Shown here: positions 384 through 64,000 of the stretch, in pieces
Layout of the letters: the number at the start of each line of letters is the position of its first letter
How positions within the stretch are numbered: position 1 is the stretch's first letter
Origin: Porphyromonas sp. COT-239 OH1446
GTDB taxonomy: Bacteria; Bacteroidota; Bacteroidia; Bacteroidales; Porphyromonadaceae
DNA length: 64,000 nucleotides
Reading direction: 5' to 3'
NCBI RefSeq assembly: GCF_000768875.1
Contig: NZ_JRAO01000005.1
Span: forward strand, 1-64,000
Notes under the pieces: generated by a model
Database searches by the model: none
The model's input: the letters and a program-made list of their open reading frames with translations, nothing else
What the model was told of the DNA's origin: nothing
Program-made: the position numbers and the translations under genes

Positions 384-387
384 CGAC

Positions 388-478
388 AGGTCTCCGTCGA
401 GGTGCTATCTATACCTCCATCGAGTCTCCAGCTGCACCTCCGTCGAGATCCTATCTAGCTGCTCGATGGAGCTCTCGG
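388..478. repeat. Intergenic 23-bp-lattice repeat, cluster A
   Basis: This gap between the IS end and the sigma-54 activator holds degenerate copies of the repeat family seen in six other gaps. The CTATCTA words at 405 and 451 are 46 bp apart (2 x 23), and each is next to a CGTCGAG-type word. The remainder to 593 is C-rich with no recognisable gene. Confidence 0.6.
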
Positions 479-3695: not shown

Positions 3696-3703
3696 TACCT
3701 TTG
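3696..3703 (+). promoter_or_regulatory. -7 promoter box (TACCTTTG) for sialidase
   Basis: Exact TAnnTTTG match between the secG terminator and the sialidase gene. It implies a leader of about 100 bases before the signal-peptide ATG at 3809. Confidence 0.6.
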
Positions 3704-3808
3704 GGGAGCATTGTGCAAGACCTCGCCTCAGAGCCCTGCATGAGTGCGCCCATAACCCCTGGCTTGGGGCATTTGACAATAAATATCTATCCCTTACAGA
3801 CAAATCTT

Positions 3809-6097
3809 ATGATGAAGCGAAAAATCTTCTTGGGCCTGGCTCTTGCCCTCTTTACCCTCCCGAGCTTGGAGGCGCAGCATAAGCGAACCTACATAGAGCT
3901 TGATGGAGAGCGGCAGTACCTTAGTGTCCCAGCCCATACGGACTTCGACATGAGTCGAGAGGGCAGCTATACGATCAGCTATTGGTTCTGGGGGGCTCGT
4001 ACCCAAGCCTATACTTCGGGGCAGCGCATCCTCTCTCGAGCCAGCTCCGCCGTAGCCAACGAGTATCCACGCTTCGGATACGAACTTCTAGCCCTGCGCA
4101 ACACGCAGAGCAACTTCTCTGGTTACTCCCTCCAGCAGTATTTGGACAGAGAGACTAATCGCTCGAGTACCGCCTGGGTACACTCCCCCGAGAGGGCTGA
4201 GATACGCTCTTGGCATCATGTGGCCTTCGTGATCGATCGAGAGGGAGGGCAGATATCGCTCTATGTTGATGCTCAGTTGCAGAGTAGTGTTCCTGCCAAG
4301 GCCTTTGAAGCTTTTGAAGTGCAGGGGAGCCAGCCAGTGCTCATCGGCTGCTCGCGTGATGCTAAGGGCAATCCGAGTGGCTACTTCGGAGGGAGACTGG
4401 ACAATGTCCGCTTCTACCATCGTGCCCTAACGATCGGAGAAGTGAAGCGAGACCTTAGCAGCGTGTACTCTAGGCCAAAGATTAAAGGCCTTGTAGCAGC
4501 TTTTGACTTCGATAGTTATCGCCCTGGAGATACCTCGATCACTGACGCTACGGGCAGGCATACCGCCCAGCTACATGGTTTTGCCTCGGGGCTTGATCAT
4601 CCTCTTGTCCGTACCTTTGCCGAGACTAAGACCAATGGTAATCTGATTGGCCGTGGAGAGGCACAGGCCTTGAGCTCTCTAGCCCTCGGCCTTGCTCGTG
4701 TAGACCGTATCAGAGAACTTTCGGTGTCGCTCGAAGGGACAACGAGCCTCGAAGATATTAGAGCCCTCAAGCTCTACGCCACTGAGGTGTGCGATCGCTT
4801 TGACCATCGAAGCCCTGGGCTGTTGATTGCTCAGACAGATAAGATCGAGACATTGAGTAGGCTCATTGCTGTTAAGGGAAGTCCCCGGATTGACCATGGT
4901 ACCAAGCTTTGGCTCGTGGCTGATATTGCCCCTTCAGCTGGGGAGGGCAACCTCGTGGCCACACAGGTCAAGAGTATTAGCTTCGCCTCCAAGGCAAAGA
5001 AACCCTTCGTCCCCGAGGCTCAAGTGCATCGTCAGGAGATTGTCCTCGAGCGCACACTCGTTTGGACCCCAGGAGAGCAGGGGGCTGCTAGCTACCGTAT
5101 CCCCGCTATCGTGCGGATGGATGATGGCTCGCTCGTAGCCTCGATAGACCGCCGTAAGAACAGCGACTACGACCTACCTGAGGATATTGATGTAGAGGTC
5201 AAGATCAGCCATGATGAGGGCAAGACCTGGAGCGAACCCATCACCGTTGCCCGAGGCACTGCAGCCCATGGCTACGGCGATGCTGCGATGGTGAGCGACG
5301 GCAAGACGATCCACATGGTGATGGTTGCGGGCTCGGGCCTCTGGGCTTACCCCAGCAGTGCTCAGAAGGCGATGGAGATGTACTACACGCAGAGCACCGA
5401 TGGCGGACGCAGCTGGACTCCTGTGCGGGAGATCACCTCGGAGGTCTATACCGATCGTTACCCCAATGGAGGGTTCTTCGGCTCGGGGAATGGACTGATT
5501 ACCAGCCGTGGGCGCATCGCTTTCGTCGCTGCTATGCGTGTTGATCCACGATGGGGAGGACAGATGGACAACGTCATGGTCTACTCCGATGATCAGGGCA
5601 AGAGCTGGAAGGCCTCTCCAGTGGCTCGTGCCAATGGAGACGAGTCGAAGATCGTCGAGCTCTCGAGCGGAGAGCTGCTCATCTCCAGTCGTAACCGTGC
5701 TGGCGGGGCAAACGACCGCACCTTCGTCGTCTCGGCAGACCATGGGCAGACTTGGTCTACGCCTGGCACCTGGAGAGAGCTGCGGGGTAATGCCTGCAAT
5801 GCCTCTCTGACACGCTACAGCACTACCCGAGAGGGCAAGGCTCACAATGTGCTGCTACATACGCTACTGCACTCGGCCAAGCGAGAGCGTCTGACGCTGT
5901 TCCTCAGCGATGACGACGGGCGCAGCTGGCCTGTAAGCCGGGTGATCTGCGAGGGAGAGGCGGCCTATAGCGAGCTGGTCGTCTTCCCCGATGGCTCGAT
6001 CGGGATCATCTCGGAGGAGAATGACCGTCCTGCCTACGATATCTACTTCACCCGAGTGTCCCTAGAGTGGCTCATGAAGGGTAAGAACAAGAAATAA
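3809..6097 (+). CDS. Exo-alpha-sialidase (GH33) with LamG-like domain
   Basis: A 762-residue secreted enzyme predicted to release terminal sialic acid from host glycoproteins. The start at 3809 gives the signal peptide MMKRKIFLGLALALFTLPSLEAQ; the frame is open further upstream but without a secretory signal. Residues about 27-215 resemble a laminin-G/concanavalin domain (TYIELDGERQYLSV ... GGRLDNVRFYHRALT). The catalytic propeller begins near residue 425 with the RIP motif (SYRIPAIVRMDDGS), and five Asp-box repeats follow: SHDEGKTW, STDGGRSW, SDDQGKSW, SADHGQTW and SDDDGRSW. This architecture matches the large sialidases of oral Bacteroidetes. The zinc exporter gene follows after 13 bases and may be co-transcribed. 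Confidence 0.93.
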   Translation: MMKRKIFLGLALALFTLPSLEAQHKRTYIELDGERQYLSVPAHTDFDMSREGSYTISYWFWGARTQAYTSGQRILSRASSAVANEYPRFGYELLALRNTQSNFSGYSLQQYLDRETNRSSTAWVHSPERAEIRSWHHVAFVIDREGGQISLYVDAQLQSSVPAKAFEAFEVQGSQPVLIGCSRDAKGNPSGYFGGRLDNVRFYHRALTIGEVKRDLSSVYSRPKIKGLVAAFDFDSYRPGDTSITDATGRHTAQLHGFASGLDHPLVRTFAETKTNGNLIGRGEAQALSSLALGLARVDRIRELSVSLEGTTSLEDIRALKLYATEVCDRFDHRSPGLLIAQTDKIETLSRLIAVKGSPRIDHGTKLWLVADIAPSAGEGNLVATQVKSISFASKAKKPFVPEAQVHRQEIVLERTLVWTPGEQGAASYRIPAIVRMDDGSLVASIDRRKNSDYDLPEDIDVEVKISHDEGKTWSEPITVARGTAAHGYGDAAMVSDGKTIHMVMVAGSGLWAYPSSAQKAMEMYYTQSTDGGRSWTPVREITSEVYTDRYPNGGFFGSGNGLITSRGRIAFVAAMRVDPRWGGQMDNVMVYSDDQGKSWKASPVARANGDESKIVELSSGELLISSRNRAGGANDRTFVVSADHGQTWSTPGTWRELRGNACNASLTRYSTTREGKAHNVLLHTLLHSAKRERLTLFLSDDDGRSWPVSRVICEGEAAYSELVVFPDGSIGIISEENDRPAYDIYFTRVSLEWLMKGKNKK

Positions 6098-8570: not shown

Positions 8571-8667
8571 CAGATAATTCTTTGTTTGTAGCATCGTCCA
8601 CTTGGTGTGCATATTTGCTCGCCTCCCGAGGTCAGACCTGCCCAAGGCGTGGGGAGGTGAGGGCTAT

Positions 8668-8830
8668 GTGCTTGATGGGCTCTCGGTGGAGCTCCGTCTG
8701 AGTCTCCACTTCGATCCAAATAGGACTTCGGTGGTGATCCTATCTAAGCCTCTACTTCGATCCCAATAGGACTTCGGCAGAGCTCTCGTCTAGGCCTTCA
8801 CCCTCGATCTCGATAGGGTCTCAAGAATGG
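8668..8830. repeat. Intergenic 23-bp-lattice repeat, cluster B
   Basis: The gap 8512-9021 carries divergent promoters for tyrS and rel, and this repeat block. TAGGACTTCGG occurs at 8721 and 8767, 46 bp apart, within near-identical stretches beginning near 8703 and 8750. A reverse-oriented CCTATCTAAG lies between them. No coding potential was seen. Confidence 0.75.
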
Positions 8831-8992
8831 GTGTCTCTAGAGCTCTAGGATATTCCCGAGCTAGGGAAATTCATTCGCTGAGGCTCTGCACTCCCCCGTA
8901 GACCAGTCCAGTAACTTGTCGATCTAGTCCATATCTCCCCTCGAAGGGTAACTTCCTCTCGATGTTGGGAGCGTAGAGTGCTACATTTTTAA

Positions 8993-9000
8993 TACTTTTG
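8993..9000 (+). promoter_or_regulatory. -7 promoter box (TACTTTTG) for rel
   Basis: TAnnTTTG match 21 bases before the ATG at 9022; it probably drives the rel-fbp-PBP1a unit. Confidence 0.6.
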
Positions 9001-17013: not shown

Positions 17014-17161
17014 ACCACCCCTTAGTGTCGCCTCCTTTCGTCGAGCTTTGCCTCAGCCTCGTTGCCCTAGAGCATCGAAATCCTCCCCCATTCTTCCGCC
17101 CTTGAATAGCCAGGAGAGGCGGCGTGGTGTGTCAAGTTGATCTTAGTTTGCGAATAGATTT

Positions 17162-17178
17162 GGTTTATAATATAAACC
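17162..17178. promoter_or_regulatory. Operator-like palindrome upstream of membrane protein/regulator pair
   Basis: Perfect palindrome GGTTTATA-A-TATAAACC, ending five bases before the -7 box. A dimeric winged-helix protein could bind it. The second gene of the transcript encodes such a regulator, so autoregulation is a reasonable guess. Confidence 0.5.
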
Positions 17179-17182
17179 TTAT

Positions 17183-17190
17183 TATATTTG
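17183..17190 (+). promoter_or_regulatory. -7 promoter box (TATATTTG)
   Basis: Exact TAnnTTTG in a locally A/T-rich stretch, upstream of the membrane protein/winged-helix pair. Confidence 0.7.
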
Positions 17191-17335
17191 CATCGTGATA
17201 GAGTGCTTCGTCCAGCCTAGGAGGGCGATCCGCCTCTGTCCGAGAGCTCTCCCCATGAGGCTCATATGCAGCCTCCTTAGTAGATCGAGACCCTATCAAG
17301 GTCTCTAGTCATTCATCATTCAAATCTCTACGACA

Positions 17336-17977: not shown

Positions 17978-18269
17978 CTTGCCAAGTCTCGACCCTGTAC
18001 TCATGTCCGAGCTGAGGCTAGCCATCATGTCCATTTTGATGTCGGTAGAGGAGGCGGACTTTGTCTACATCAAGGAGGTTACCTCTGCAACCTCGGGCAA
18101 TATCAGTGTGCAACTGGATAAGTTAGCCAGTTTGGGCTACTTGACGATCGAGAAAGGATTTGTGGGCAAGAGGCCTCGAACCAGCTGTCATATCACCCAG
18201 CAGGGGCGAGAGGCTTTCGTCCGACACTTCGAGGCTCTCAGAGCCTATCACCCCGATGATAAGCCCTAG
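17961..18269 (+). CDS. Winged-helix transcriptional regulator
   Basis: A 102-residue protein matching the small winged-helix family (PF13601-type): LRLAIMSILMSVEEADFVYIKE leads into the recognition region TSATSGNISVQLDKLASLGYLTIEKGFVG (two-part motif), then a wing with RPRTSCHITQQGREAF. Its start lies inside the end of the membrane-protein gene, so they are translated together. It probably acts as a dimer; the palindrome at 17162-17178 is a candidate target. A hairpin follows the gene. Confidence 0.87.
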   Translation: MAQIISLPSLDPVLMSELRLAIMSILMSVEEADFVYIKEVTSATSGNISVQLDKLASLGYLTIEKGFVGKRPRTSCHITQQGREAFVRHFEALRAYHPDDKP

Positions 18270-18300
18270 GCTTGTTGCGGTTCAAGATGCGATCCAGGGA

Positions 18301-18340
18301 GGAGGGTTAGCGGCACGGATCTTCGTGCTGCTGACCCTCC
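18301..18340. terminator. Bidirectional hairpin between winged-helix gene and histidine kinase
   Basis: 17-base arms (18301-18317, 18324-18340) around a six-base loop; the two non-Watson-Crick positions can form G-U pairs in RNA. It lies between convergent genes. No strong T-run, so confidence is moderate. Confidence 0.6.
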
Positions 18341-18374
18341 CCTTACAGCGAGCACAAGGGCGGTCTATGGCTGC

Positions 18375-19571: not shown

Positions 19572-19617
19572 ACATTATTTGTCTCTAGTAGACTATTCCC
19601 TGCTGAGGAGGTCGAGG

Positions 19618-19625
19618 CAAAGATA
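19618..19625 (-). promoter_or_regulatory. -7 promoter box (TATCTTTG) for histidine kinase
   Basis: Exact minus-strand TAnnTTTG, 46 bases upstream of the kinase ATG. The rest of the gap to 19775 has no gene; it contains a CTCTCCC/GGAGAG hairpin near 19685-19705. Confidence 0.65.
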
Positions 19626-19775
19626 GCAAAGAGCAGCGAGGCTCCGCTCCCCGCCGCCCTTCTTTGTATGGCTTCCGACTCGGATTCTCTCCCGAGGGAG
19701 AGGTGTCTTCAAAATCGAAGTCAAGAGCAATTTCATACAAAAATGTAAGTGTAGATGTAGTTGCGAGGATTTTAT

Positions 19776-19783
19776 TATCTTTG
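19776..19783 (+). promoter_or_regulatory. -7 promoter box (TATCTTTG) for SPOR lipoprotein operon
   Basis: Exact TAnnTTTG, 64 bases before the SPOR gene. A TGACTGAGTAGTCA palindrome-like stretch lies just downstream at about 19791-19804. Confidence 0.65.
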
Positions 19784-19847
19784 CCAAAACTGACTGAGTA
19801 GTCAGTTTAGAGTAGAGCTTAGAGATAAACTATTATAAGTCATAGTT

Positions 19848-21380: not shown

Positions 21381-22880
21381 ATGAAGCTCATTATCCTAGG
21401 CTCAGGGACGAGCACCGGAGTGCCTGAGGTCGGCTGCCTCTGTAATGCCTGTCGCAGCACCGACGAGCGAGATCGTCGCCTGCGTGCCTCTGCTCTCCTA
21501 ATCACCGACGAGGGCAAGCGTATCCTTATCGACTGCGGGCCAGACTTTCGCCAGCAAGCCCTACGCTACGGCATTGATCACCTTGATGGCATCATCATTA
21601 CCCACGAGCACTACGACCACATTGCAGGGCTGGACGATTTGCGTACCATCTGCTGGCGAGAGAGCCTGCCTATCTATGCTCAGGCTCGAGTGCTGGACGC
21701 TATTCGCCATCGGCTGCACTATGTCTTTGGGGCACACCCATACCCTGGTTCGCCCCGGCTAGAGCTCTTCGAGATACAGCCAGATCGCCCCTTCGAGCTC
21801 TGTGGCCTTGAGATAACCCCCTTTGAGGTGATGCATGGCCGTCTACCGATCTTAGGTTTTAGGATGGGGAGCTTGGCTTATATTACCGACCTCAAGTCTC
21901 TGCCCGAAGCCTCTCGCCCCTATATCTCGGGGCTTGACCTCCTCGTTGTTAATGCGCTGAGGCAGAAGAAGCCTCACCCCTCTCACCAGTCAATCGATGA
22001 TGTCCTCGAGCTGCTCGAGGGGCTGGAGCATCGCCCTCGTCTGAGCTTGCTGACCCATCTATCGCACCATGCCCCTGTGCACCGCCTGATGGAGGCCACA
22101 CTGCCCCAGGATGTACGCCCTGCCTATGATGGGCTATCCATCGAACTCTCTCATGCACCCCAAACCTTTCGTCTAGAGAGCTATCGACCCACAACGCTTC
22201 GTCTAGAGTGTCGAGACTGTGGGTACATCGCCTATTCGGAGGCTTATGAGTTGCAGCATCGGCTCTTCGACAGTATCCTCGATTGTAAGCGAAGAGCCGA
22301 GGAGACGGAGAGCTATCTTTTGCTCTGTGAGCACAACCCCGTCTTCACCTTTGGCAAGCATGCAGATCGGGCGAATATGTTGATGGACGAAGATTTCCTG
22401 CGCTCGCATGGCTATGAGTGGTATAGTATCGAGCGTGGAGGGGATGTTACCTATCATGGCCCTGGACAGATTACGGGCTATCCGATCCTAGATCTAGAAG
22501 CCTTTGGCCTTGGGCTAAGGGCCTACATCGAGCTCTTGGAGGAGGCAATCATCGAGCTGCTTGCCCTCTATGATATTCGAGGAGAGCGTAGGAGTGATGC
22601 CACGGGTGTATGGCTCGATGCTACAGAGCCTTGCTCGGCCCGTAAGATCTGTGCCATTGGGGTGCGTAGCAGCAGGTATGTTACCATGCACGGCTTTGCC
22701 TTGAATGTGAATAATGACCTTGCTCCCTTTAGGCTCATCAACCCTTGTGGCTTCGTCGATGGTCAGGTCAGCTCCATTGCTCAAGAGAAGGGGGAGGAGG
22801 TAGACATCACCGTCGTCAAGCATCAGCTCTCAGCGATCATTGTCCGAAGGCTTCGGGAGCGTCTCGAGGCTTTCAAGTAG
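21381..22880 (+). CDS. lipB: Fusion protein: MBL-fold hydrolase + octanoyltransferase LipB
   Basis: One uninterrupted 499-residue frame joins two enzymes. Residues 1-256 are a PhnP-like metallo-beta-lactamase-fold hydrolase with a Cys-rich start (GCLCNAC), the metal motif THEHYDHIAGLDD (His75, His77, Asp79, His80), and a later MHGRLPILGFR. Residues about 268-499 are LipB, which moves octanoyl groups from acyl carrier protein to lipoyl domains: RGGDVTYHGPGQ (352-363), Lys422 in RKICAIGVR, and Cys456 in NPCGFVDGQVSSI. No start codon with a ribosome site is evident at the junction. Lipoyl synthase was not seen nearby. LipB activity is well supported; the MBL substrate is unknown. Confidence 0.92.
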   Translation: MKLIILGSGTSTGVPEVGCLCNACRSTDERDRRLRASALLITDEGKRILIDCGPDFRQQALRYGIDHLDGIIITHEHYDHIAGLDDLRTICWRESLPIYAQARVLDAIRHRLHYVFGAHPYPGSPRLELFEIQPDRPFELCGLEITPFEVMHGRLPILGFRMGSLAYITDLKSLPEASRPYISGLDLLVVNALRQKKPHPSHQSIDDVLELLEGLEHRPRLSLLTHLSHHAPVHRLMEATLPQDVRPAYDGLSIELSHAPQTFRLESYRPTTLRLECRDCGYIAYSEAYELQHRLFDSILDCKRRAEETESYLLLCEHNPVFTFGKHADRANMLMDEDFLRSHGYEWYSIERGGDVTYHGPGQITGYPILDLEAFGLGLRAYIELLEEAIIELLALYDIRGERRSDATGVWLDATEPCSARKICAIGVRSSRYVTMHGFALNVNNDLAPFRLINPCGFVDGQVSSIAQEKGEEVDITVVKHQLSAIIVRRLRERLEAFK

Positions 22881-23600: not shown

Positions 23601-24479
23601 ATGAAGTCTACCATTGTAAAGGCTCTCTGTAGCATTTCTCTTCTCACTTTGGTTGTCCTAGGCGTAGGCAATCTCTCTCTGTTAGCCCATTCTAGGCAGA
23701 AGAAGGCTCTCCCAGAGAGCATGCGTATCGAGCTCTCTAGGGAGATCCGAGAGCTATTTGTTACCTCTGCCCTCGAGGTGCACCTGCATCAGGGAGATGA
23801 ACCCTATATGGAGGTTCGGGCGAGTGATCCAGAGACGCTGGATCTCTTCGCCTACACTCATCAAGACAAGCGTCTCAAGCTATCTCGTAAGAAGAAGAGC
23901 TCTCGCCTACGCAGCAGAGAGATCCAAGTGCACCTCTACCTGCCCAACCTCGAGCGGCTCAGCCTCGCAGGGGCAAGCATGATGCAGTCGGATCTGCCGA
24001 TCGAGGCGGAGCGGTTCGAGCTCGAGGTGTCGGGGGCAAGCCGCTTGAATGACTTGATAGGCAATGCCCGTCAGTTTGTTGCTAGGATCTCGGGGGCTTC
24101 TATCGTCAAGGGTTCGATGCGAGGCGAGAGGGCAGATATTAATATCTCTGGGGCAAGCCGCTCCACCCTGTGGCTAGGGGCTAAGCATAGTCTCTCGCTC
24201 GGGATGTCGGGGGCAAGCCGATGCGCTCTGAGTGGCGAGGTCGAGATGCTTGACCTTGAGGTCTCGGGGGCTAGTCAGTTCGGAGTCAATACGGATATGA
24301 AGCTGTCTGCCCGTCGGGCAAGCATCTCTGGATCGGGGGCTTCGAGGATCTCGGTAGAGGTTACCGAGGAGGTGCTCTCGATCGATCTGTCGGGGGCAAC
24401 TCGTCTCTACCTCAAGGGTTCGGCCCAGCGCATGGGTAAGATCTCCATCCGAGGAGCTTGTCGCCTGAGTAACGAGTAG
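23601..24479 (+). CDS. DUF2807 'head GIN' domain protein
   Basis: A 292-residue predicted exported protein: signal segment at 1-30, then a repetitive beta-rich body. The motif SGAS or a close form (AGAS, SGAT, RGAC) recurs roughly every 20-25 residues, eight or more times, as in DUF2807 ('head GIN') proteins of Bacteroidetes predicted to fold as a right-handed beta-helix. Residues around 88-108 form a basic patch (KRLKLSRKKKSSRLRSRE). Surface or periplasmic location is likely; function is unknown. A hairpin follows the gene. Confidence 0.85.
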   Translation: MKSTIVKALCSISLLTLVVLGVGNLSLLAHSRQKKALPESMRIELSREIRELFVTSALEVHLHQGDEPYMEVRASDPETLDLFAYTHQDKRLKLSRKKKSSRLRSREIQVHLYLPNLERLSLAGASMMQSDLPIEAERFELEVSGASRLNDLIGNARQFVARISGASIVKGSMRGERADINISGASRSTLWLGAKHSLSLGMSGASRCALSGEVEMLDLEVSGASQFGVNTDMKLSARRASISGSGASRISVEVTEEVLSIDLSGATRLYLKGSAQRMGKISIRGACRLSNE

Positions 24480-25917: not shown

Positions 25918-26070
25918 TGACCCCTCGATGGAAGGCCCGTCTAGGGGCTAGATCTAGGGGGCGATAGACCTACACTTGCGAAAGTAATAGGATCTCGATC
26001 GAGGCCTAGATAGGAGCTCAAGTGAGCTCCTATCTAGGCCTCACTTGCATCCCTATCTATATCTCACTTG
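25918..26070. repeat. Intergenic 23-bp-lattice repeat, cluster C, with 19-bp inverted repeat
   Basis: In the 460-base gap before uvrA, TAGG-type words occur at 25965 (TAGA), 25988 and 26011, spaced 23 bp; reverse-oriented CCTA words follow at 26029 and 26052, again 23 bp apart. Around the switch of orientation is a perfect 19-bp inverted repeat with a two-base centre, 26002-26041 (arms AGGCCTAGATAGGAGCTCA). No gene is visible here. Confidence 0.85.
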
Positions 26071-34225: not shown

Positions 34226-34239
34226 AAAATGAGTTAAGA

Positions 34240-34405
34240 GCTCGATCTAGATCCTACCGAGGTCTCGATCGAGCTCTCGTCTATGGCCTCTGTGGAGGTC
34301 TAAGCAGGCTCTCACTCGAGGCTCAGATAGGACTTCACTTGAGGGCCTACTTGAGTCTCGATGGAGATATAAGTAGGACTTCGATCGCAATCCTATCTAA
34401 GTCTC
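34240..34405. repeat. Intergenic 23-bp-lattice repeat, cluster D
   Basis: Between convergent comM and the small TPR gene. CAGG/TAGG words at 34305, 34328 and 34374 are spaced 23 and 46 bp; reverse CCTA words at 34346 and 34392 are 46 bp apart. Key words are CTCAGATAGGACTT and TCCTATCTAAGTCTC. No gene seen in this 315-base gap. Confidence 0.8.
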
Positions 34406-40462: not shown

Positions 40463-40650
40463 GCCGAAGACCTAGATGGGCATGCCTTCGAGCTCTAGAT
40501 AGGCCCTCGATCGAGGTCTAAGTAGGATTGCCTTCGAGGCTCAGATAGGACTTCACTTGAGCTCCTATCTGAGTCTCTCTTGTCCTCTAGATGGGGGCTC
40601 AAGAGGGCATCCATCTAGACCTTTGGCAGAGGCCTCGATAGGCCTTCCCC
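40463..40650. repeat. Intergenic 23-bp-lattice repeat, cluster E
   Basis: In the divergent gap between ruvX and pyrH. TGGG/TAGG words at 40477, 40500, 40523 and 40546 form a direct tandem array of exact 23-bp period; unit words include CTAAGTAGGATTG and CTCAGATAGGACTT, with a CTCGATCGAGG core. A reverse-oriented block (CTCCTATCTGAGTCTC) starts at 40562. No gene seen. Confidence 0.85.
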
Positions 40651-40843: not shown

Positions 40844-41569
40844 ATGAAACGCTACAATAGAGTCCTGCTCAAGCTCAGCGGCGAGTCGCTCATGGGCGCA
40901 CAGCAGTATGGGATAGACACTAATCGCCTCAGCGACTATGCACGGGATATACGAGCAGCTGTAGAGATGGGCACGCAGGTCTCGATCGTGATCGGTGGAG
41001 GGAATATCTTCCGAGGCCTCAAGGGTGCTACTCAGGGCTTCGACCGAGTGAAGGGCGATCAGATGGGTATGTTAGCCACTGTCATCAACAGTCTTGCGCT
41101 GAGCTCTGCTCTCAGTGCCGTGGGCGTTAAGAACCGTGTCTTAACGGCCATTCGTATGGAGCCCATCGGTGAGTTCTACACTAAATGGAAGGCCATCGAG
41201 CATCTCGAAGCTGGCGAGGTCGTTATCCTCTCCGCAGGTACAGGTAACCCCTTCTTCACTACCGATACGGGTTCGTCCCTCAGAGGCATTGAGCTAGAGG
41301 CCGATGTGATGCTCAAGGGTACTCGTGTCGATGGGATCTACACGGCTGACCCCGAGAAGGATCCGACAGCGACGAAGTATGACCGCATTACCTACGATGA
41401 GATCTATCGCCAGGGGCTTAAGGTCATGGATCTAACGGCTACGACTATGTGCATGGAGAATGACCTACCCATCGTGGTCTTTGATATGGATACCCCAGGC
41501 AATCTGCTGCGTGTGCTTCGAGGCGAACCCATCGGGACTTATGTAAGCAATTCCCTCTCAGAGCAATAA
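40844..41569 (+). CDS. pyrH: Uridylate kinase
   Basis: A 241-residue amino-acid-kinase-fold UMP kinase making UDP. Family segments are clear: N-terminal [62 protein letters not shown], and [22 protein letters not shown]. Usual length. It heads the conserved pyrH-frr pair, with 28 bases between them, linking nucleotide supply and ribosome recycling in one transcript. Confidence 0.97.
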
Positions 41570-44142: not shown

Positions 44143-45945
44143 TTAGTCCCCGATGAAGGTGTCGTTGAGCACCTCTCTGTAGTTGTTGAATATTTTGCTC
44201 TTGGAGATGAAGCCACGGTAACGCCCAGCCTCATCGACTACGGGGAGCTTCCACTCCTTACTCTCGTCGAAGATCTGCATGATGCGTACCATAGGCATAT
44301 CGGGGCGCACCTTGATGCGGGGCGAGGTCATGATATGGCCCACCGTGTGGCGATCATAGAGCTCGGGACGGAACATGATGTTGCGGATATTGTCCAGCTC
44401 TACGATGCCGACTAAGACTCCGTCGGCATTGACCACGGGGAAGGAGTTGCGGTGGGTGGTCGAGAAGACCTTGACGAGCTCCCCGAGGCTCATCTCAGGG
44501 TGTACGACGTCGAAGTCTGTCTCGAGGACATGCTCGACATTCATCAGGGTGAGGACGGCGGTGTCCTTCTGATGCGTTAGCAGCTTGCCTTGCTCGTCGA
44601 GGCGCAGGGCGTAGATGCTTCGGGGCATGAAAATGCGTATCGTACCGTAGGCGGTGATGGAGACGACCATGAGGGGAAGGAACATCGCATATCCGCCCGA
44701 GAGCTCAGCGATGAGGAAGACCCCAGTCAGTGGGGCATGCATCACAGCTGCCATGAGGCCCGCCATCCCGAGCAGGACGTAGTTCTTGCTCGGCAGGTAG
44801 ACATTGGTAAAGGAAAGGAAGTTGATCAGGAAAGAGAAGAGGAAGCCTGTCAGCCCACCAACGAAGAGCGTAGGGGCGAAGAGCCCACCACATCCGCCGC
44901 CTGAGTTCGTAGCCACGGAGGCGAATACCTTGAGTAGTACGATGAGTAGTAGGAAGGCAAAGACGATCCAGAACGAGCCCGCAAAAGGCTCGAGGAGACT
45001 ACCCTCGAGCAGCTGCCCATATTGCCCACTTAGCAGCAGGTTGATCGTGCTGTAACCCTCGCCATAGAGGGGCGGAAAGAAGAAGATCAGCGAGCTGAGC
45101 ACCAGTGCCGAGGCGAGGAATTTGTTGCGATAGTTCGCCATGCGCTTGAACTGCCCCTCCAGGCGAAACATTGTCTTGGAGAAGTAGAGGGCCATCAGCC
45201 CGCAGAAGATCCCGAGCAGGATCATCAGGGGGAAGTTGCTCGTCGAGTAAGGGTCAGTGTGTTGGTAGCGAAAGAGGATCTCCTGCCCCGAGAGCATGTA
45301 CGATACGGCTGCGGCTGAGACAGAGCTCAGTAGTAGGGGAAGGACGGATGACATGGTCAGGTCGAGCAGCAGCACTTCAATGACGAAGACGAGTCCTGTG
45401 ATGGGGGCCTTGAAGATCCCTCCTAGAGCCCCAGCCACCCCACAGCCAATGAGCAGCATGAGGTTACGCTGCTCGAGGCGGAAGATGCGTCCGAAATTGC
45501 TCCCTATAGCCGCACCTGTGAGCACGATAGGCGATTCGGCTCCGACCGACCCTCCGAAACTGATCGTCAGACCACTCGCAACGAGCGAAGACCAAGTATT
45601 GTGAGGCTTGATGCGGCTCTTGCGCTGTGAGATCGAGCTCAGCACTTTGGTGACCCCATGGCCAATATCATCTCTGAGTAGATAACGTACGAAGAGGCCG
45701 CTGAGCAGGATACCCACTACGGGGAAGATGAGATACCAATAGCTCCTCCCCCCAGCGTAGCCTAAGAGTAGATGCTCAATGCCGTGGATGAATTGCTTGA
45801 GTAGGGATGATAGGAGGGCCATCGTGATCCCGATCAAGAGGCTGAGCAGGAGGATGAAGTATCGTTCGCTAATGTATCGCTCGCGCCAGAGGATGAAGCG
45901 ATCGAGCAGGGTTTGGCTCGAAGTCTTGAGGCTGTCTAGGGTCAT
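44143..45945 (-). CDS. ClC-type chloride channel/antiporter with CBS domains
   Basis: A 600-residue membrane protein. The ClC body (about 30-440) carries GGSVGAESPIVLTG, the selectivity region with the gating-glutamate position (canonical GxEGP, here GAESP), GVAGALGGIFKAPITGLVFVIEV and GGCGGLFAPTLFVGG. Two CBS motifs follow (about 465-595: NSFPVVNADGVLVGIVELDN and WKLPVVDEAGRYRGFISKSK), suggesting adenine-nucleotide control. Its start overlaps the Sua5 stop by four bases. Transport of chloride coupled to protons is the family expectation; mode not proven here. Confidence 0.92.
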   Translation of the reverse strand: MTLDSLKTSSQTLLDRFILWRERYISERYFILLLSLLIGITMALLSSLLKQFIHGIEHLLLGYAGGRSYWYLIFPVVGILLSGLFVRYLLRDDIGHGVTKVLSSISQRKSRIKPHNTWSSLVASGLTISFGGSVGAESPIVLTGAAIGSNFGRIFRLEQRNLMLLIGCGVAGALGGIFKAPITGLVFVIEVLLLDLTMSSVLPLLLSSVSAAAVSYMLSGQEILFRYQHTDPYSTSNFPLMILLGIFCGLMALYFSKTMFRLEGQFKRMANYRNKFLASALVLSSLIFFFPPLYGEGYSTINLLLSGQYGQLLEGSLLEPFAGSFWIVFAFLLLIVLLKVFASVATNSGGGCGGLFAPTLFVGGLTGFLFSFLINFLSFTNVYLPSKNYVLLGMAGLMAAVMHAPLTGVFLIAELSGGYAMFLPLMVVSITAYGTIRIFMPRSIYALRLDEQGKLLTHQKDTAVLTLMNVEHVLETDFDVVHPEMSLGELVKVFSTTHRNSFPVVNADGVLVGIVELDNIRNIMFRPELYDRHTVGHIMTSPRIKVRPDMPMVRIMQIFDESKEWKLPVVDEAGRYRGFISKSKIFNNYREVLNDTFIGD

Positions 45946-46532
45946 GGACGAATAACTTTGACCTCAGCCCCAGGGCCGAGCTTGATGATCTGTGAGGGTT
46001 CGGCGACACTCTTGTCCTCCTGTCTGTAGCGCACGATATAGTCCACACCCTGTTTGATTTCTTCGCAGATGGCATCGAAAGTCATCGGCGTCGGGTCTCC
46101 GCTGAGGTTGGCTGAGGTAGAGACGATCGGCCGACGCATCCGTCGGCAGAGTGCTTGGGAGAAGGCTTCTCGGCTGCGACGGATGCCCAGGCTACCATCC
46201 TCAGCCAGGAGCGAGGGGGCAACGCCCCGAGCTCCGCTGAAGATGATCGTGATCGGGCGAATAGCCATATCCATCATGTCGAAGGCGATCTCGGGGGGCG
46301 TGTCTACGAGCGCATCGATTTGCCAGTCGTCGGCCACGAGCACGAGCATACTCTTGGCATCGGCACGGCGTTTGAGGTCGTAGATGCGTCGCACGGCCTC
46401 TTCGTTCGTGGCATCGCAGCCAATCCCCCAAATGGTGTCAGTGGGGTAGAGGATGAGTCCACCCGAGCGTAGAGTTTCGGTTGCCCGCTCGAGGTCTTCT
46501 CGGCAGAGGAGGGAGGGGTCTTTGTCGTTCAT
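45942..46532 (-). CDS. L-threonylcarbamoyladenylate synthase (Sua5/YrdC/YciO)
   Basis: A 196-residue enzyme of t6A tRNA modification. Seen are GGLILYPTDTIWGIGCDA, IYDLKRRADAKSMLVLV, SLGIRRSREAFSQAL and the family motif IVSTSANLSG. The start at ATG 46532 (MNDKDPSLL) fits family length; an in-frame ATG at 46607 directly after the -7 box would add a 25-residue Gln/Arg-rich tail. The stop overlaps the start of the ClC gene by four bases. YciO-like paralogs share the fold, so substrate is not certain. Confidence 0.9.
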   Translation of the reverse strand: MNDKDPSLLCREDLERATETLRSGGLILYPTDTIWGIGCDATNEEAVRRIYDLKRRADAKSMLVLVADDWQIDALVDTPPEIAFDMMDMAIRPITIIFSGARGVAPSLLAEDGSLGIRRSREAFSQALCRRMRRPIVSTSANLSGDPTPMTFDAICEEIKQGVDYIVRYRQEDKSVAEPSQIIKLGPGAEVKVIRP

Positions 46533-46610
46533 ATATCTTTGGTCTGTGAGGAGGTCTTGGGCTGAGGTATTCTGCCCCTGACCTCTACTTTGTCTGTTCC
46601 TTTGCATAGG

Positions 46611-46618
46611 CAAAATTA
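46611..46618 (-). promoter_or_regulatory. -7 promoter box (TAATTTTG) for Sua5-ClC-fmt
   Basis: Minus-strand TAnnTTTG match. The transcript would start close to the ATG at 46607, giving either a leaderless long form or a leader of about 70 bases for the form starting at 46532. Confidence 0.6.
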
Positions 46619-46807
46619 GGAACACTTTGTCATACTTCTGATAGTTCATGCCTATAATCGGAGTGGCCGATTTGTGGTGTGCCCCAAGCCTCTATGCCCT
46701 TCCTCTCATCTTCTTTCCCCTTCGCATCCTATTTGATTGATTATTTGCTTTGATTATGAGTGGATTATATGCTTGTTTTCCATTGCTCCACTAGATAGAC
46801 CAAATGA

Positions 46808-46935
46808 TCTAGATAGGATCTAGGTTGAAGTCCTATCTATGCCTCGATGTCGATCCTATTTGAGTCTCGAGTACGCTCCTATTTATATCTCTTGGGTGAT
46901 CCTATACGGGATCTCTGTCGAGGTCTCTTAGGCAT
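46808..46935. repeat. Intergenic 23-bp-lattice repeat, cluster F (cleanest array)
   Basis: Four TCCTAT words start at 46831, 46854, 46877 and 46900, an exact 23-bp direct tandem array, each followed by a variable GCCTCGATG/GAGTCTCGAG-type core. A reverse TAGGAT word precedes at about 46814. The flanking stretch 46650-46800 is A/T-rich and the remainder to 47041 holds no gene. Confidence 0.9.
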
Positions 46936-47103: not shown

Positions 47104-47661
47104 ATGAGCAATTACGTTGGGAATTTGATCCCTCAGTCCTTCTTCATCACGAAGGGTAGCGGCGAATCTGATTTGGAGTTGCACGCTGGATCATACCACA
47201 TGGCTCTGCACGATGCAGGGATCTCTGACTTCAACATCATGGTCTACTCCTCCGTACTACCTGCTACGGCTCATATCGTCTCTATGGATGAGATCGATCT
47301 ACCCCCCTTCGGTTCGGAACTCAAAACGATCCTAGCCGTATCGCATGGTCAGCAGGACGAGTTCGTCTCTGCTGGTGTGGTGTATGCCTGGATGTATGCT
47401 GACGAAAACTTCGATCAAAAGGTAGGTGGGCTCGTGTGTGAGGTAAGCGGACGCTACCGCATCGAGGAGCTAGAGGCTCGCCTGATTCGTGTGATCAACG
47501 ACCTACATCAGAAGACCTATTCGCATTTCTATCTCGGAGAGTTGAACTTCGTTACTGAGGGGATCACCATCGAGAAGCGTTACGGTACAGCCCTTGCAGG
47601 TCTCTGCTTCGTAGATTTCGAGCTACCCCAGGTAGCAGCCCCAGCCAGTCGTCAGCACTAG
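47104..47661 (+). CDS. Pyruvoyl-dependent arginine decarboxylase
   Basis: A 185-residue member of the PvlArgDC family, which makes agmatine and CO2 from arginine. The proenzyme cleaves itself at a Ser-Ser bond to create the pyruvoyl group; the candidate site is in NIMVYSSVLPATA (Ser49-Ser50). The family N-terminus (IPQSFFITKGSGESDLELHAGSYHMALHDAGI in parts) and the late stretch ELNFVTEGITIEKRYGTALAGLCF are present. Monocistronic with its own promoter and terminator. Roles in polyamine supply or acid resistance are possible; no antiporter or agmatine deiminase gene adjoins it. Confidence 0.9.
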   Translation: MSNYVGNLIPQSFFITKGSGESDLELHAGSYHMALHDAGISDFNIMVYSSVLPATAHIVSMDEIDLPPFGSELKTILAVSHGQQDEFVSAGVVYAWMYADENFDQKVGGLVCEVSGRYRIEELEARLIRVINDLHQKTYSHFYLGELNFVTEGITIEKRYGTALAGLCFVDFELPQVAAPASRQH

Positions 47662-52016: not shown

Positions 52017-52262
52017 ATTGGGGTTTTGTCTTTGTTGATTGAGGTGTTTGTGATGCTCCCTTGTCCGAGGGGTTCGAGGGGGGCTCGACCCTTGGAGCGG
52101 GGGCGAAGTTAGTCAATTATCTGCCCCTCGGGGCTAAGGGGCGGAGGGAAATGTCGCTAGACTCTTCCAATCCGCTGTGGATAAGCTATTTGTCCCTTGG
52201 GGGGAGGCTGATTGCTCAGCCGTAGGATAGGCCTTCTCTTCGGGGGGAAGCTCCTCCATTTT

Positions 52263-52361
52263 GCACCCTATATTGGGTGCACTCGCACCCAATATAGGGT
52301 GCATGCGCACCCACTATAGGGTGCAAACGCACCCATTATAGGGTGCAAACACACCCCAATA
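52263..52361. repeat. Array of GCACCC-N6-GGGTGC palindromes, 22-bp period
   Basis: Four 18-bp units start at 52263, 52285, 52307 and 52329 (exact 22-bp period), with a worn fifth (ACACCCCAAT) from 52351. Centres are TATATT, AATATA, ACTATA and ATTATA; unit 2 is the exact reverse complement of unit 1. Spacers are four bases (ACTC, ATGC, AAAC, AAAC). The array lies in the 419-base gap between the 3' end of the SNF2 gene and the 5' end of xth. The rest of the gap shows only a CCCCTCGGGGCTAAGGGG self-complementary stretch near 52125. Confidence 0.95.
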
Positions 52362-52435
52362 CCTTCGCCCGTGGAGGGGCTTCGGTGCATCCCTCGAGGT
52401 GCTCCCTTCGCCCCTCGGGCTGCCCCCTTCTCGAT

Positions 52436-60099: not shown

Positions 60100-60450
60100 T
60101 TATTTATTCTTTGAGCGGATGTTGGCCAATACGAGGTTGGCATATATCATGAAGATAACAGCCAAGAGAAGGAATAGGATCCAGAGCTTCGCCCCCCAAG
60201 CGTCGAAGACTCCGAGACGGGCCACACCCGAGACGACGAAGAGCAGTCCTGCGAAGGCATTCATCCGTATGAGGCGACGCTCTCGCAGGGGTAAATGCTC
60301 CTCGGGGGCTATGAGGTAATAGAGGAGGTAACCCGCCCCTCCGAGCAGGTAGATCAGGTGAAAGGCTAGATGCTCCACCATCCCCAGGGCAGCTCCCGAG
60401 AGGATCATCAGCGTGCTGACGATGTAGAGGTATTTGTATTGTTGTTTCAT
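60100..60450 (-). CDS. Small hypothetical membrane protein
   Basis: A 116-residue protein with four hydrophobic segments: YLYIVSTLMILSGAALGMV, AFHLIYLLGGAGYLLYYLI, MNAFAGLLFVVSGVARL and LWILFLLLAVIFMIYANLVL. A short basic loop (LPLRERRLIR) lies between segments 2 and 3. I do not recognise a named family. It lies 12 bases downstream of divIC/ftsB and abuts the pseudouridine synthase gene, so it belongs to this operon. Confidence 0.75.
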   Translation of the reverse strand: MKQQYKYLYIVSTLMILSGAALGMVEHLAFHLIYLLGGAGYLLYYLIAPEEHLPLRERRLIRMNAFAGLLFVVSGVARLGVFDAWGAKLWILFLLLAVIFMIYANLVLANIRSKNK

Positions 60451-61084: not shown

Positions 61085-61265
61085 GCTAGAGACTCAAGTA
61101 GGACCTCGATGGAGACTCAGATAGGAGCTCGACTACACTCCTACTTGAGTCTCCATCAAGATCCTATTTATACCTCCGCTGAGCCCCTCCTGTGTCCTCG
61201 AGCGCAAACCTATCTAGATCCCTATCGAGGTCTCGTCTAGCCCCTCGCTCGAGGATCTACCGAGA
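61085..61265. repeat. Intergenic 23-bp-lattice repeat, cluster G
   Basis: In the 600-base divergent gap between divIC and the ABC-F gene. TAGGA words at 61099 and 61122 (23 bp), reverse TCCTA words at 61139 and 61162 (23 bp). GAGACTCAAGTAGGA (61089-61103) and its exact complement (61139-61153) form a 15-bp inverted repeat. More degenerate copies continue to about 61265. No gene is visible in the gap. Confidence 0.85.
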
Positions 61266-63042: not shown

Positions 63043-63077
63043 AGCTGGCTCAGTGGTTAGAGGTTGATCTCTATAGG

Positions 63078-63116
63078 CTTAGGCCCGATCTCTCTTGGAG
63101 GTCGGGCCTAAGTGTT
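63078..63116 (+). terminator. Terminator after YbiT-like gene
   Basis: Perfect 11-bp stem CTTAGGCCCGA (63078-63088) with 63102-63112, 13-base loop, then TGTTTCTG. Confidence 0.8.
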
Positions 63117-63198
63117 TCTGTACCAAATATCCGATCCTCTACCTTGATCTATCGACGAAGCCTATGGACTAAGAGGTGAGAATGCGCTTAGTTTTGCT

Positions 63199-63206
63199 TA
63201 CTTTTG
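63199..63206 (+). promoter_or_regulatory. -7 promoter box (TACTTTTG) for LptF/LptG gene
   Basis: TAnnTTTG match, 24 bases before the GTG at 63231. Confidence 0.55.
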
Positions 63207-63230
63207 TGTCTGCATATTTGGAGCATAGTC

Positions 63231-64000
63231 GTGTTTAAGAAAATAGATCTATATACACTCAAGACCTTCCTGCCACTCCTTGTGATGACCTCGCTAATCT
63301 GCTGGTTCATCGTGCTGATGCAGTTCCTCTGGCGTTATATGGACGAGTTGGTGGGCAAGGGTCTGAGCCTTACGGTCGTGGCAGAGATCGTTTTCTATGC
63401 CTCCATGTATCTCGTGCGTCAGGCCCTCCCACTGGGTATCCTATTGGCCTCGCTCATCACCTTTGGCAATATGGGCGAACGCCTCGAGCTCCTCTCGATG
63501 AAGGCCTCTGGCGTATCGCTCTATCGTATCATGAGCCCCCTCTTAATTGCCGTCTTTGGGGTTGGACTTTGGCTCTACCACTTCCAGAACAACTTCATGA
63601 TTACTTCCGAGGTGCGCATGTGGACACTCCTGTATTCAGCTCGTTATTCAGCTCCTGAGCTAGAGGTCCCCGAGGGGAGCTTTTATAATGGGATCACGGG
63701 CTACAGTATGTTTGTCAAGCACCGAGACAGAGAGACAGGTCGTCTCGAGGATGTCATGCTCTATGACTATAAGTCGGGAGTCGATAGGACGCGCATCATT
63801 CGAGCAGATTCTGCCCGTATGGCTATGGACGATAGCAAGCTCTATCTCTCGCTCAAGCTCTATCAAGGACAGAGCTTCGAGAACCTCGAGGATCCTCCTG
63901 GCACACAAGATAATGCCCCGATTCCTCATGCCATAGAACGATTTGATCTCAAGGAGATCCTTATTCCCTTCAATGCAAACTTCAATCGACAGGATGAGAA
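63231..64000 (+). CDS. LptF/LptG-family permease (partial, runs off window)
   Basis: An open frame from GTG 63231 to the window end gives 256 codons without a stop. The N-terminus (FKKIDLYTLKTFLPLLVMTSLICWFIVLMQFLW in parts) is the first membrane helix of YjgP/YjgQ proteins, followed by RYMDELVGKGLSLTVVAEIV and ALPLGILLASLITFGNMGERLELLSMKASG, the conserved cytoplasmic coupling segment. A periplasmic beta-jellyroll part begins near residue 120. With LptB these permeases extract LPS from the inner membrane. No upstream ATG is available; GTG fits the promoter. The C-terminal half lies beyond the window. Confidence 0.9.
   Translation, partial: MFKKIDLYTLKTFLPLLVMTSLICWFIVLMQFLWRYMDELVGKGLSLTVVAEIVFYASMYLVRQALPLGILLASLITFGNMGERLELLSMKASGVSLYRIMSPLLIAVFGVGLWLYHFQNNFMITSEVRMWTLLYSARYSAPELEVPEGSFYNGITGYSMFVKHRDRETGRLEDVMLYDYKSGVDRTRIIRADSARMAMDDSKLYLSLKLYQGQSFENLEDPPGTQDNAPIPHAIERFDLKEILIPFNANFNRQDE

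Follow-up and report, generated by a model that had tools for sequence, protein, structure and literature searches.

Short arrays of degenerate palindromic sites, set on a step of 23 bp, occupy intergenic gaps of the window (the whole stretch of 64,000 nucleotides analyzed here) and of other parts of its genome, so that the lattice first noticed in the window is confirmed and is broader than first stated. We propose that these arrays are spacing-constrained binding lattices for a putative cooperative DNA-binding protein, patches of which have been copied between loci, and we rate the chances of this reading as about even. What is observed is the lattice itself, its dyad symmetry, its intergenic bias and its recurrence across the genus sample with other words. 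Also observed are linkers that, in four relatives, keep their length although their sequence is near-random, an absence of compensatory pairing, and patches common to different loci.

The 23-bp lattice in the window

In cluster F, the word TCCTAT starts at 46831, 46854, 46877 and 46900, a step of exactly 23 bp, with ATAGGA at 46813, which bears out the coordinates and spacing of the original prediction. A 23-bp lattice had been placed in seven gaps of the window, and each of the seven clusters does contain at least one site scoring ≥8 with a clean profile of the unit, built from 61 units at loci on contigs other than the window's own and the 331-kb contig C2 of the same genome (G000; other G-numbers denote the other genomes compared). 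Strands were merged to distinct sites, and the training loci of this profile had originally been fetched by their resemblance to a window word. A larger profile comprised 309 units, none of them from the window, selected through an earlier profile that included window and C2 units. The clusters and the neighboring genes are listed below, with clean-profile sites and the range of larger-profile matches scoring ≥6.

385..478, no strand: cluster A, CTCC(G/A)TCGAG-type words on a 23-bp step; lag-23 identity 0.55; single clean-profile site ≥8 at 431; larger-profile matches at 385, 408, 431/432 and 456 (range 385–456)
8697..8789, no strand: cluster B, divergent gap, mainly a 46-bp step; lag-23 identity only 0.39; sites 8697, 8720, 8743 and 8767; TCCTAT words at 8720 (−), 8738 (+) and 8766 (−); range 8697–8767
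25987..26055, no strand: cluster C, ATAGGA arm followed by TCCTAT arm; lag-23 identity 0.58; sites 25988, 26011 and 26033; range 25987–26033
34234..34396, no strand: cluster D, convergent gap; lag-23 identity 0.49; sites 34234, 34282, 34305, 34328 and 34373; range 34234–34374
40499..40568, no strand: cluster E, divergent gap upstream of pyrH; lag-23 identity 0.61; sites 40500, 40523 and 40545; range 40499–40546
40844–41569, + strand: pyrH (TIGR02075), downstream of cluster E
45942..46649, − strand: threonylcarbamoyladenylate synthase (tsaC-type) gene (TIGR00057, 132.4 bits vs a cut-off of 123.2), left of cluster F
46813..46904, no strand: cluster F, divergent gap, one ATAGGA-oriented word and then four TCCTAT; lag-23 identity 0.57; sites 46814, 46836, 46859 and 46882; range 46813–46882
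47104..47661, + strand: pyruvoyl-dependent arginine decarboxylase-like gene (TIGR00286, E 2.3e-13, under the curated cut-off), right of cluster F
61098..61260, no strand: cluster G, units at 61098–61189 plus one at 61237–61260; lag-23 identity 0.55; sites 61099, 61121, 61144, 61167 and 61238; range 61098–61238

Two other genes of the window were noted in passing. A single ORF at 21381–22880 joins an MBL-fold hydrolase (residues 1–255) to LipB, the lipoyl(octanoyl) transferase part (267–495), in an apparent fusion, and a 798-aa ORF at 3701–6097 has two matches that stay under the curated cut-offs, a sialidase-like one at its C terminus and a weak TafC-like stretch.

Intergenic self-identity in the window reaches 0.299 at lag 23 and 0.291 at lag 46 (mean 0.256, sd 0.012, over lags 5–79), while coding DNA is flat (0.249 and 0.248 at the same lags). 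At a score of ≥10, the clean profile finds 23 intergenic, two coding and one straddling site in the window, or 2.91 intergenic vs 0.036 coding sites per kb. For C2, the corresponding counts are 140, 26 and three (4.15 vs 0.087 per kb). The distance from TAGGA to TCCTA equals 17 modulo 23 in 16/22 pairs lying within 120 bp in the window. The word TCCTAT itself is not enriched in the window (34 occurrences vs 37.9 expected), and the signal there is one of spacing, not of abundance of this word. No array was found in six long gaps of the window (17014–17335, 17978–18374, 19572–19847, 52017–52435, 60100–60369 and 63043–64000), in which lag-23 identity is 0.32–0.41 and the larger profile has no match scoring ≥6.

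Some of the original claims stood only in part. For the gap 8602–8997, described as having 23- or 46-bp steps, the 46-bp repeat is clear by eye but lag-23 identity is only 0.39. The units, which had not been seen within genes, have a strong intergenic bias but are not wholly absent from genes, since eight coding sites score ≥8 in the window. The description of the family as dispersed, mostly intergenic and degenerate was sound, and units do occur in both orientations within one cluster, with the register maintained when they flip; the palindromic nature of the unit and the genus-wide pattern with other sequences had been missed.

Anatomy of the unit and its arrays

Intergenic self-identity on C2 peaks at lags 23, 46, 69 and 92. 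The consensus of the 23-bp unit in this genome is TAGGATCTCAATTGAGGTCCAAG (larger profile); the unit is a degenerate palindrome and the lattice is dyad-symmetric. Across 53 arrays (30 on C2, six in the window and 17 at other loci), 491/553 same-strand unit pairs are 0 modulo 23 apart and 452/520 opposite-strand pairs lie at one common offset; of the arrays whose two end units point opposite ways, 16 have the TAGGA arm on the left and the TCCTA arm on the right, and two have the reverse. Position 13 of the unit is near-random (0.04 bits), while the adjoining columns are 88–91% conserved. The arrays are short, with a median length of 116 bp among the 36 on C2 and in the window. Unit matches were also seen within ~220 bp of contig ends on C5, C6, C8, C26 and C27, suggesting that the assembly breaks at arrays.

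Distribution among relatives

The genus sample combined 331 kb from G000 with 100 kb from every one of 16 other genomes of the genus. The top intergenic lag was 21–23 in 16/17 samples, some with a low z (e.g., 2.8 in G013), the exception being G001, in which lag 12 came first and lag 22 third; coding DNA had no 22/23 peak in the 17 samples (z at 22 and 23 between −0.4 and 0.4). In the same samples, a de novo search over lags 14–40 placed 127 of its 130 intergenic arrays at 21–24 bp and found none in G009. Coding DNA contributed a further 68 arrays, whose lags are mixed; those listed include a few at 22 or 23. In a comb test with shuffled gaps, the best period was 20.75–23 in 16/17 samples, 11 of which beat every shuffle; borderline cases were G013, G001, G009 and G024 (matched by 5, 4, 2 and 4 of 60 shuffles, respectively), and G003 was not significant (24/60 shuffles). 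The one sample with another best period was G011 (best 12, with 21.75 second).

The single genome sampled from a related genus (G031) gave a comb period of 22.0 (0/60 shuffles), its single-lag peaks being 88, 99, 44 and 66, with none at 22 itself. Four other-family genomes yielded five intergenic arrays in the de novo search, one of them at 22; among these genomes, G059 had a comb period of 21.75 (2/60 shuffles), and therefore the trait may extend beyond the family. The comb test found nothing near 22 in G039, G051 and G057, the other three of this set, or in 150 kb of E. coli, and there was no 22 or 23 peak in 22 named Bacteroidota loci joined together (138 kb).

The words that build the arrays are species-specific: CGACCTACCGTAGGT in G014, CGAGTTACCATAACTCG in G021, ACCnATATnGGT in G004 and GGATATCC-type in G012. 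In the ten genomes whose arrays were clustered by word, the largest family held 26/29, 10/15, 8/14, 7/13, 8/10, 4/6, 3/6, 3/5, 5/5 and 3/5 arrays. Dyad symmetry, judged against column shuffles (p ≤ 0.05), was present in 88 of 128 intergenic arrays (the 127 above and one from an outgroup) vs 10 of 34 coding arrays. A compact element was also observed in G013 (loci L102–L131): in several of the five loci displayed, 23-bp units of the TAGGAATTTGCC type flank a CTTCGGAGGAATCAAATGAAA core. G017 and G020 have comparable units of 21 bp.

Fixed step, free linkers and shared patches

A symmetric core model that ignores the linkers was used to measure the distance between neighboring cores, counting neighbors up to 40 bp apart and leaving out longer distances. 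The core words came from arrays that had been detected through their period. The distance equaled the species' step in 25/31 cases in G004, 27/29 in G014, 32/33 in G021 and 21/22 in G012, or 105/115 when pooled. These scans also matched coding DNA (27, 18, 4 and 29 matches vs 52, 42, 42 and 42 intergenic ones, in the order reported). While neighboring cores are 0.76, 0.78, 0.79 and 0.71 identical in G004, G014, G021 and G012, respectively, the linkers of 4–8 bp between them are 0.34, 0.39, 0.40 and 0.33 identical, against 0.27, 0.26, 0.27 and 0.41 expected by chance. In the first three genomes, the linkers are thus somewhat above chance, which indicates that some duplication occurred. Simple tandem duplication, however, should have copied the linkers along with the cores; because their sequence is nearly free and their length constant in the four relatives, the result favors selection on spacing, as cooperative protein binding would predict. 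In G000, the core nearly fills the unit and the test is weak: 71/145 distances are at 23, and 59 at 10–13 stem from a second dyad, the 2-bp linker being 0.51 identical.

Alignment of the 53 G000 arrays with 250-bp flanks (blastn; 1378 array pairs) gave 11 pairs with at least 85% identity over at least 60 bp. The arrays at C2:245023 and C2:317176 are 92% identical over 140 bp, and another pair 96% over 107 bp. By eye, identity drops abruptly while the register continues in two of the five alignments shown, and the flanks of patch-sharing arrays are unrelated; beyond the array, one pair also has a separate block of 40 bp in common. In-register patches between unrelated flanks look like gene conversion between arrays and not like transposition of a whole element. 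The original argument that strict spacing implies selection on, or copying with, a fixed unit length thus receives qualified support from the linker-blind spacing test in the four relatives, from the restriction to 21–24 bp in the genus and from the copied in-register patches.

Such patches between distant loci would also be expected if the arrays were minisatellites, a functionless product of mutation that slippage and interlocus gene conversion keep homogeneous and whose unit length depends on some property of replication or repair. This is consistent with the greater likeness of G000 units at even distances (0.63, vs 0.53 at odd ones), which amounts to a local 46-bp repeat, and with neighbors being slightly more alike than units of different arrays when orientation is disregarded (0.603 vs 0.559, on the 238/279 cells that score well), as well as with array positions that are not clearly conserved between orthologous gaps. 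Same-orientation neighbors in G000, compared over positions 6–23, are 0.535 identical vs 0.537 between units of different arrays, and so show no extra likeness. Slippage would nevertheless copy linkers, which are near-random at exact distances in the four relatives; unrelated sequences should vary in period, yet 127/130 arrays fall at 21–24 among lags 14–40; and conservation is column-specific and symmetric. We consider the minisatellite explanation rather unlikely, though the likeliest rival of the binding lattice.

Position relative to genes and along the chromosome

In the 36 arrays of C2 and the window, the median distance to a start codon is 208 bp (49 distances), the arrays lying mid-gap, and no clear orientation relative to genes was found. 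Of the gaps of C2 and the window that measure at least 100 bp, arrays are present in 18/28 divergent, 13/50 tandem and 4/23 convergent ones; in a purely descriptive logistic fit, array presence depends mainly on gap length, with a further contribution from divergence. Orthologous gaps do not clearly conserve array presence: of 61 pairs, 12 have an array in both members, compared with an expectation of 9.4. Upstream of tsaC, 7 of 14 loci (26 fetched) have a lag identity of at least 0.55 within 600 bp, in several different words (G000, G014, G021, G004, G002, G013 and G020), and the others fall below this value at 0.32–0.49 (G012, G022, G025, G017, G016, G003 and G001). When this gap is compared by eye between G013 and G020, the downstream, promoter-side flank is common to both and the array words differ.

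The arrays may also mark chromosome microdomains in this species, about one per 10 kb, maintained by selection, an idea compatible with the binding lattice and not exclusive of it. At an identity of at least 0.50, the 30 arrays of C2 are spaced 11.1 kb apart on average and none is closer than 5.1 kb to the next, although a null model matched for gap length predicts 6.3 intervals under 5 kb (5000 draws, P 0.0002); at ≥0.46 there are 32 arrays and one such interval (3.1 kb) vs 7.3 expected, and at ≥0.55, 28 arrays and none vs 5.8 (P 0.0004). Minimum intervals are 5.1 kb on C7 (17 arrays) and 5.3 kb on C8 (7 arrays), from listed positions and with three isolated weak matches dropped, although one of these, C7:82571, would yield a 2.3-kb interval if included. 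The evenness of spacing (cv), however, has P <0.001 at 0.46 and 0.027 at 0.50 but 0.16 at 0.55, no clear departure appears in G014, G021, G012 (best P 0.045) or G017, and there is none in the window (six arrays). Purging of nearby recombining repeats could produce the same pattern, so that the spacing on C2 may reflect either domains or recombinational loss of close repeats; we see the microdomain explanation as unlikely, a little more so than the minisatellite one.

Relation to BrickBuilt and other known systems

The original prediction knew of no named element with these features. That statement holds only in part, as BrickBuilt of P. gingivalis, in the same genus, is an intergenic repeat of 23 nt; its description reports imperfect 23-nt tandem repeats in dispersed, always intergenic copies, with IS5-like terminal repeats GAGACCTTTGCA and a conserved leader and tail (PMC4596501). 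In G025, a span of 991 bp runs from a BrickBuilt end word at 396607 to the complement of this word (one mismatch), which ends at 397597, and contains 18 full 23-nt repeats; the same length and repeat number are given for BrickBuilt_5 (PMC4596501), which identifies G025 as P. gingivalis and places the window in the genus Porphyromonas. The BrickBuilt unit, as read from G025, is dyad-symmetric at 18/23 positions on its best axis. This genome was also seen to carry 22-bp arrays near positions 24352, 50753 and 80649 of C1 (L224, L225 and L227), with units unlike those of BrickBuilt by eye.

BrickBuilt is the nearest named relative of the arrays studied here. They agree in having imperfect 23-bp units that are dispersed, intergenic and from the same genus (PMC4596501), and a 23-nt intergenic tandem repeat is present in the G000 arrays. 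Both units are also dyad-symmetric as read here. The unit sequence is a different one, TAGGATCTCAATTGAGGTCCAAG in G000 vs ATCCTCTCATATGAGACCATAGT in BrickBuilt_5, where units are near-identical and linkers copied, unlike the degenerate units of G000. Among comparable positions, the terminal repeats GAGACCTTTGCA were not found bracketing G000 arrays, and neither were the leader and tail in the 53 G000 arrays with 250-bp flanks (blastn). BrickBuilt has terminal repeats, a leader and a tail (PMC4596501). Array words here vary by species.

We asked, on the same evidence, whether the arrays could be mobile, as a non-autonomous IS5-type MITE of the BrickBuilt kind that carries a 23-nt minisatellite. 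The imperfect intergenic 23-nt repeats of BrickBuilt in the same genus (PMC4596501), its dyad-symmetric unit and the array segments common to different loci would agree with this. With up to one mismatch, however, the end word has 17 matches in G000 (one exact; reversed control 3) vs 143 in G025 (control 7); on C2, the closest of them lies ~0.5 kb from an array, and at the positions that can be compared, no array is bracketed by a pair, the array positions of other contigs being partly known. Alignments between arrays extend at most 99 bp past array bounds, bar the separate 40-bp block, and other species have different units with the same step, all of which makes mobility of this kind improbable. 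G022 contains 70 + 60 matches to the reversed control word GAGTTCACTTCAGGAT when three mismatches are allowed, which points to another abundant dispersed repeat.

Other systems resemble the arrays in part. REP/BIME and REPIN sequences are likewise dispersed intergenic palindromes that form families within a genome, and a strict multi-unit lattice of 21–24 bp is not known as a defining feature of REP. They were rejected because the Y1 transposase PF01797 (RAYT) has no match in G000; it was not found in G014, G021 or G025 either, and has one match in G012. Iterons and other cooperative operator arrays are direct repeats about two helical turns apart that are read cooperatively by a protein, but they are single origins or operators with a known protein, whereas here there are ~30 arrays on one 331-kb contig. 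CRISPR arrays, too, alternate a conserved, partly palindromic word with variable sequence of fixed length; the present arrays have a far shorter period, cores that vary between neighbors and linkers of 4–8 bp (four relatives), and lie in many gaps. Since the unit, terminal repeats and leader/tail of BrickBuilt were not found at the arrays and REPIN is rejected, we regard the arrays as a distinct variant of intergenic palindromic arrays. In the open-licence literature, titles and the beginnings of abstracts gave no description of a genus-wide palindromic lattice of 21–24 bp.

Palindromic units could also be transcribed into hairpins that act as terminators, processing sites or attenuators, and for BrickBuilt long stem-loops were predicted by its authors, who also refer to transcripts that arise inside the elements (PMC4596501). 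No compensatory change is seen across the dyad, which counts against RNA hairpins: in columns variable on both sides, 816 Watson–Crick pairs were observed vs 848 expected (2192 cells, 18 genome samples), and in G000 the pair 6–17 occurs at 0.33 vs 0.31 expected and the pair 7–16 at 0.55 vs 0.61. Compensated double changes number 0/23 sites in G021 and 0/22 in G014 (halved for strand), zeros that are weak by themselves because a calculation by hand expects about two each if the halves are independent. The window has no Rfam match at the gathering threshold, and the arrays have no clear orientation to genes, so that RNA hairpins are a very improbable explanation. Hairpins between neighboring units were rejected separately, inverted identity at odd unit distances not being raised in G000.

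A putative binding lattice and its meaning

According to the binding-lattice proposal, a cluster would be a short array of palindromic sites, 23 bp from center to center here and 21–24 bp in relatives, on which a dimeric DNA-binding protein would dock, cooperatively along the DNA; cooperative docking of dimers would in turn demand that each sits about two helical turns from the next. The putative protein would read the cores and be cooperative, its specificity would probably co-evolve with the word of each species, and gene conversion between arrays may spread the current word. A single protein would not explain the minor word families found beside the leading one in 9/10 clustered genomes. 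No candidate for an autoregulated reader gene appeared among the ten proteins flanking shared gaps, which are housekeeping-like by eye. Because arrays lie mid-gap, at the median distance from start codons given above, and are not clearly oriented to genes, they may serve to structure the chromosome locally or to insulate transcription units from each other.

These elements can be joined into a wider picture that we hold only tentatively and think unlikely to be right in full, in which protein lattices with a conserved two-turn pitch and a fast-turning, species-specific word would be found across the Porphyromonadaceae, read by a putative co-evolving architectural protein and forming ~10-kb boundaries in the present species, BrickBuilt being a captured rack. 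Extrapolation from the samples would put at least 100 intergenic palindrome racks in each genome of several species, and BrickBuilt would be one such rack taken up by a transposable element.

It is unusual for intergenic DNA of bacteria to keep a spacing rule longer than the sequence to which the rule applies, and this points to a putative reader. Discovery of such a protein would add a nucleoid or insulator factor with a constant pitch and a recognition word that differs from species to species, a bacterial parallel to fast-evolving DNA-recognition systems, and BrickBuilt would be recast as one case of a feature of the whole genus.
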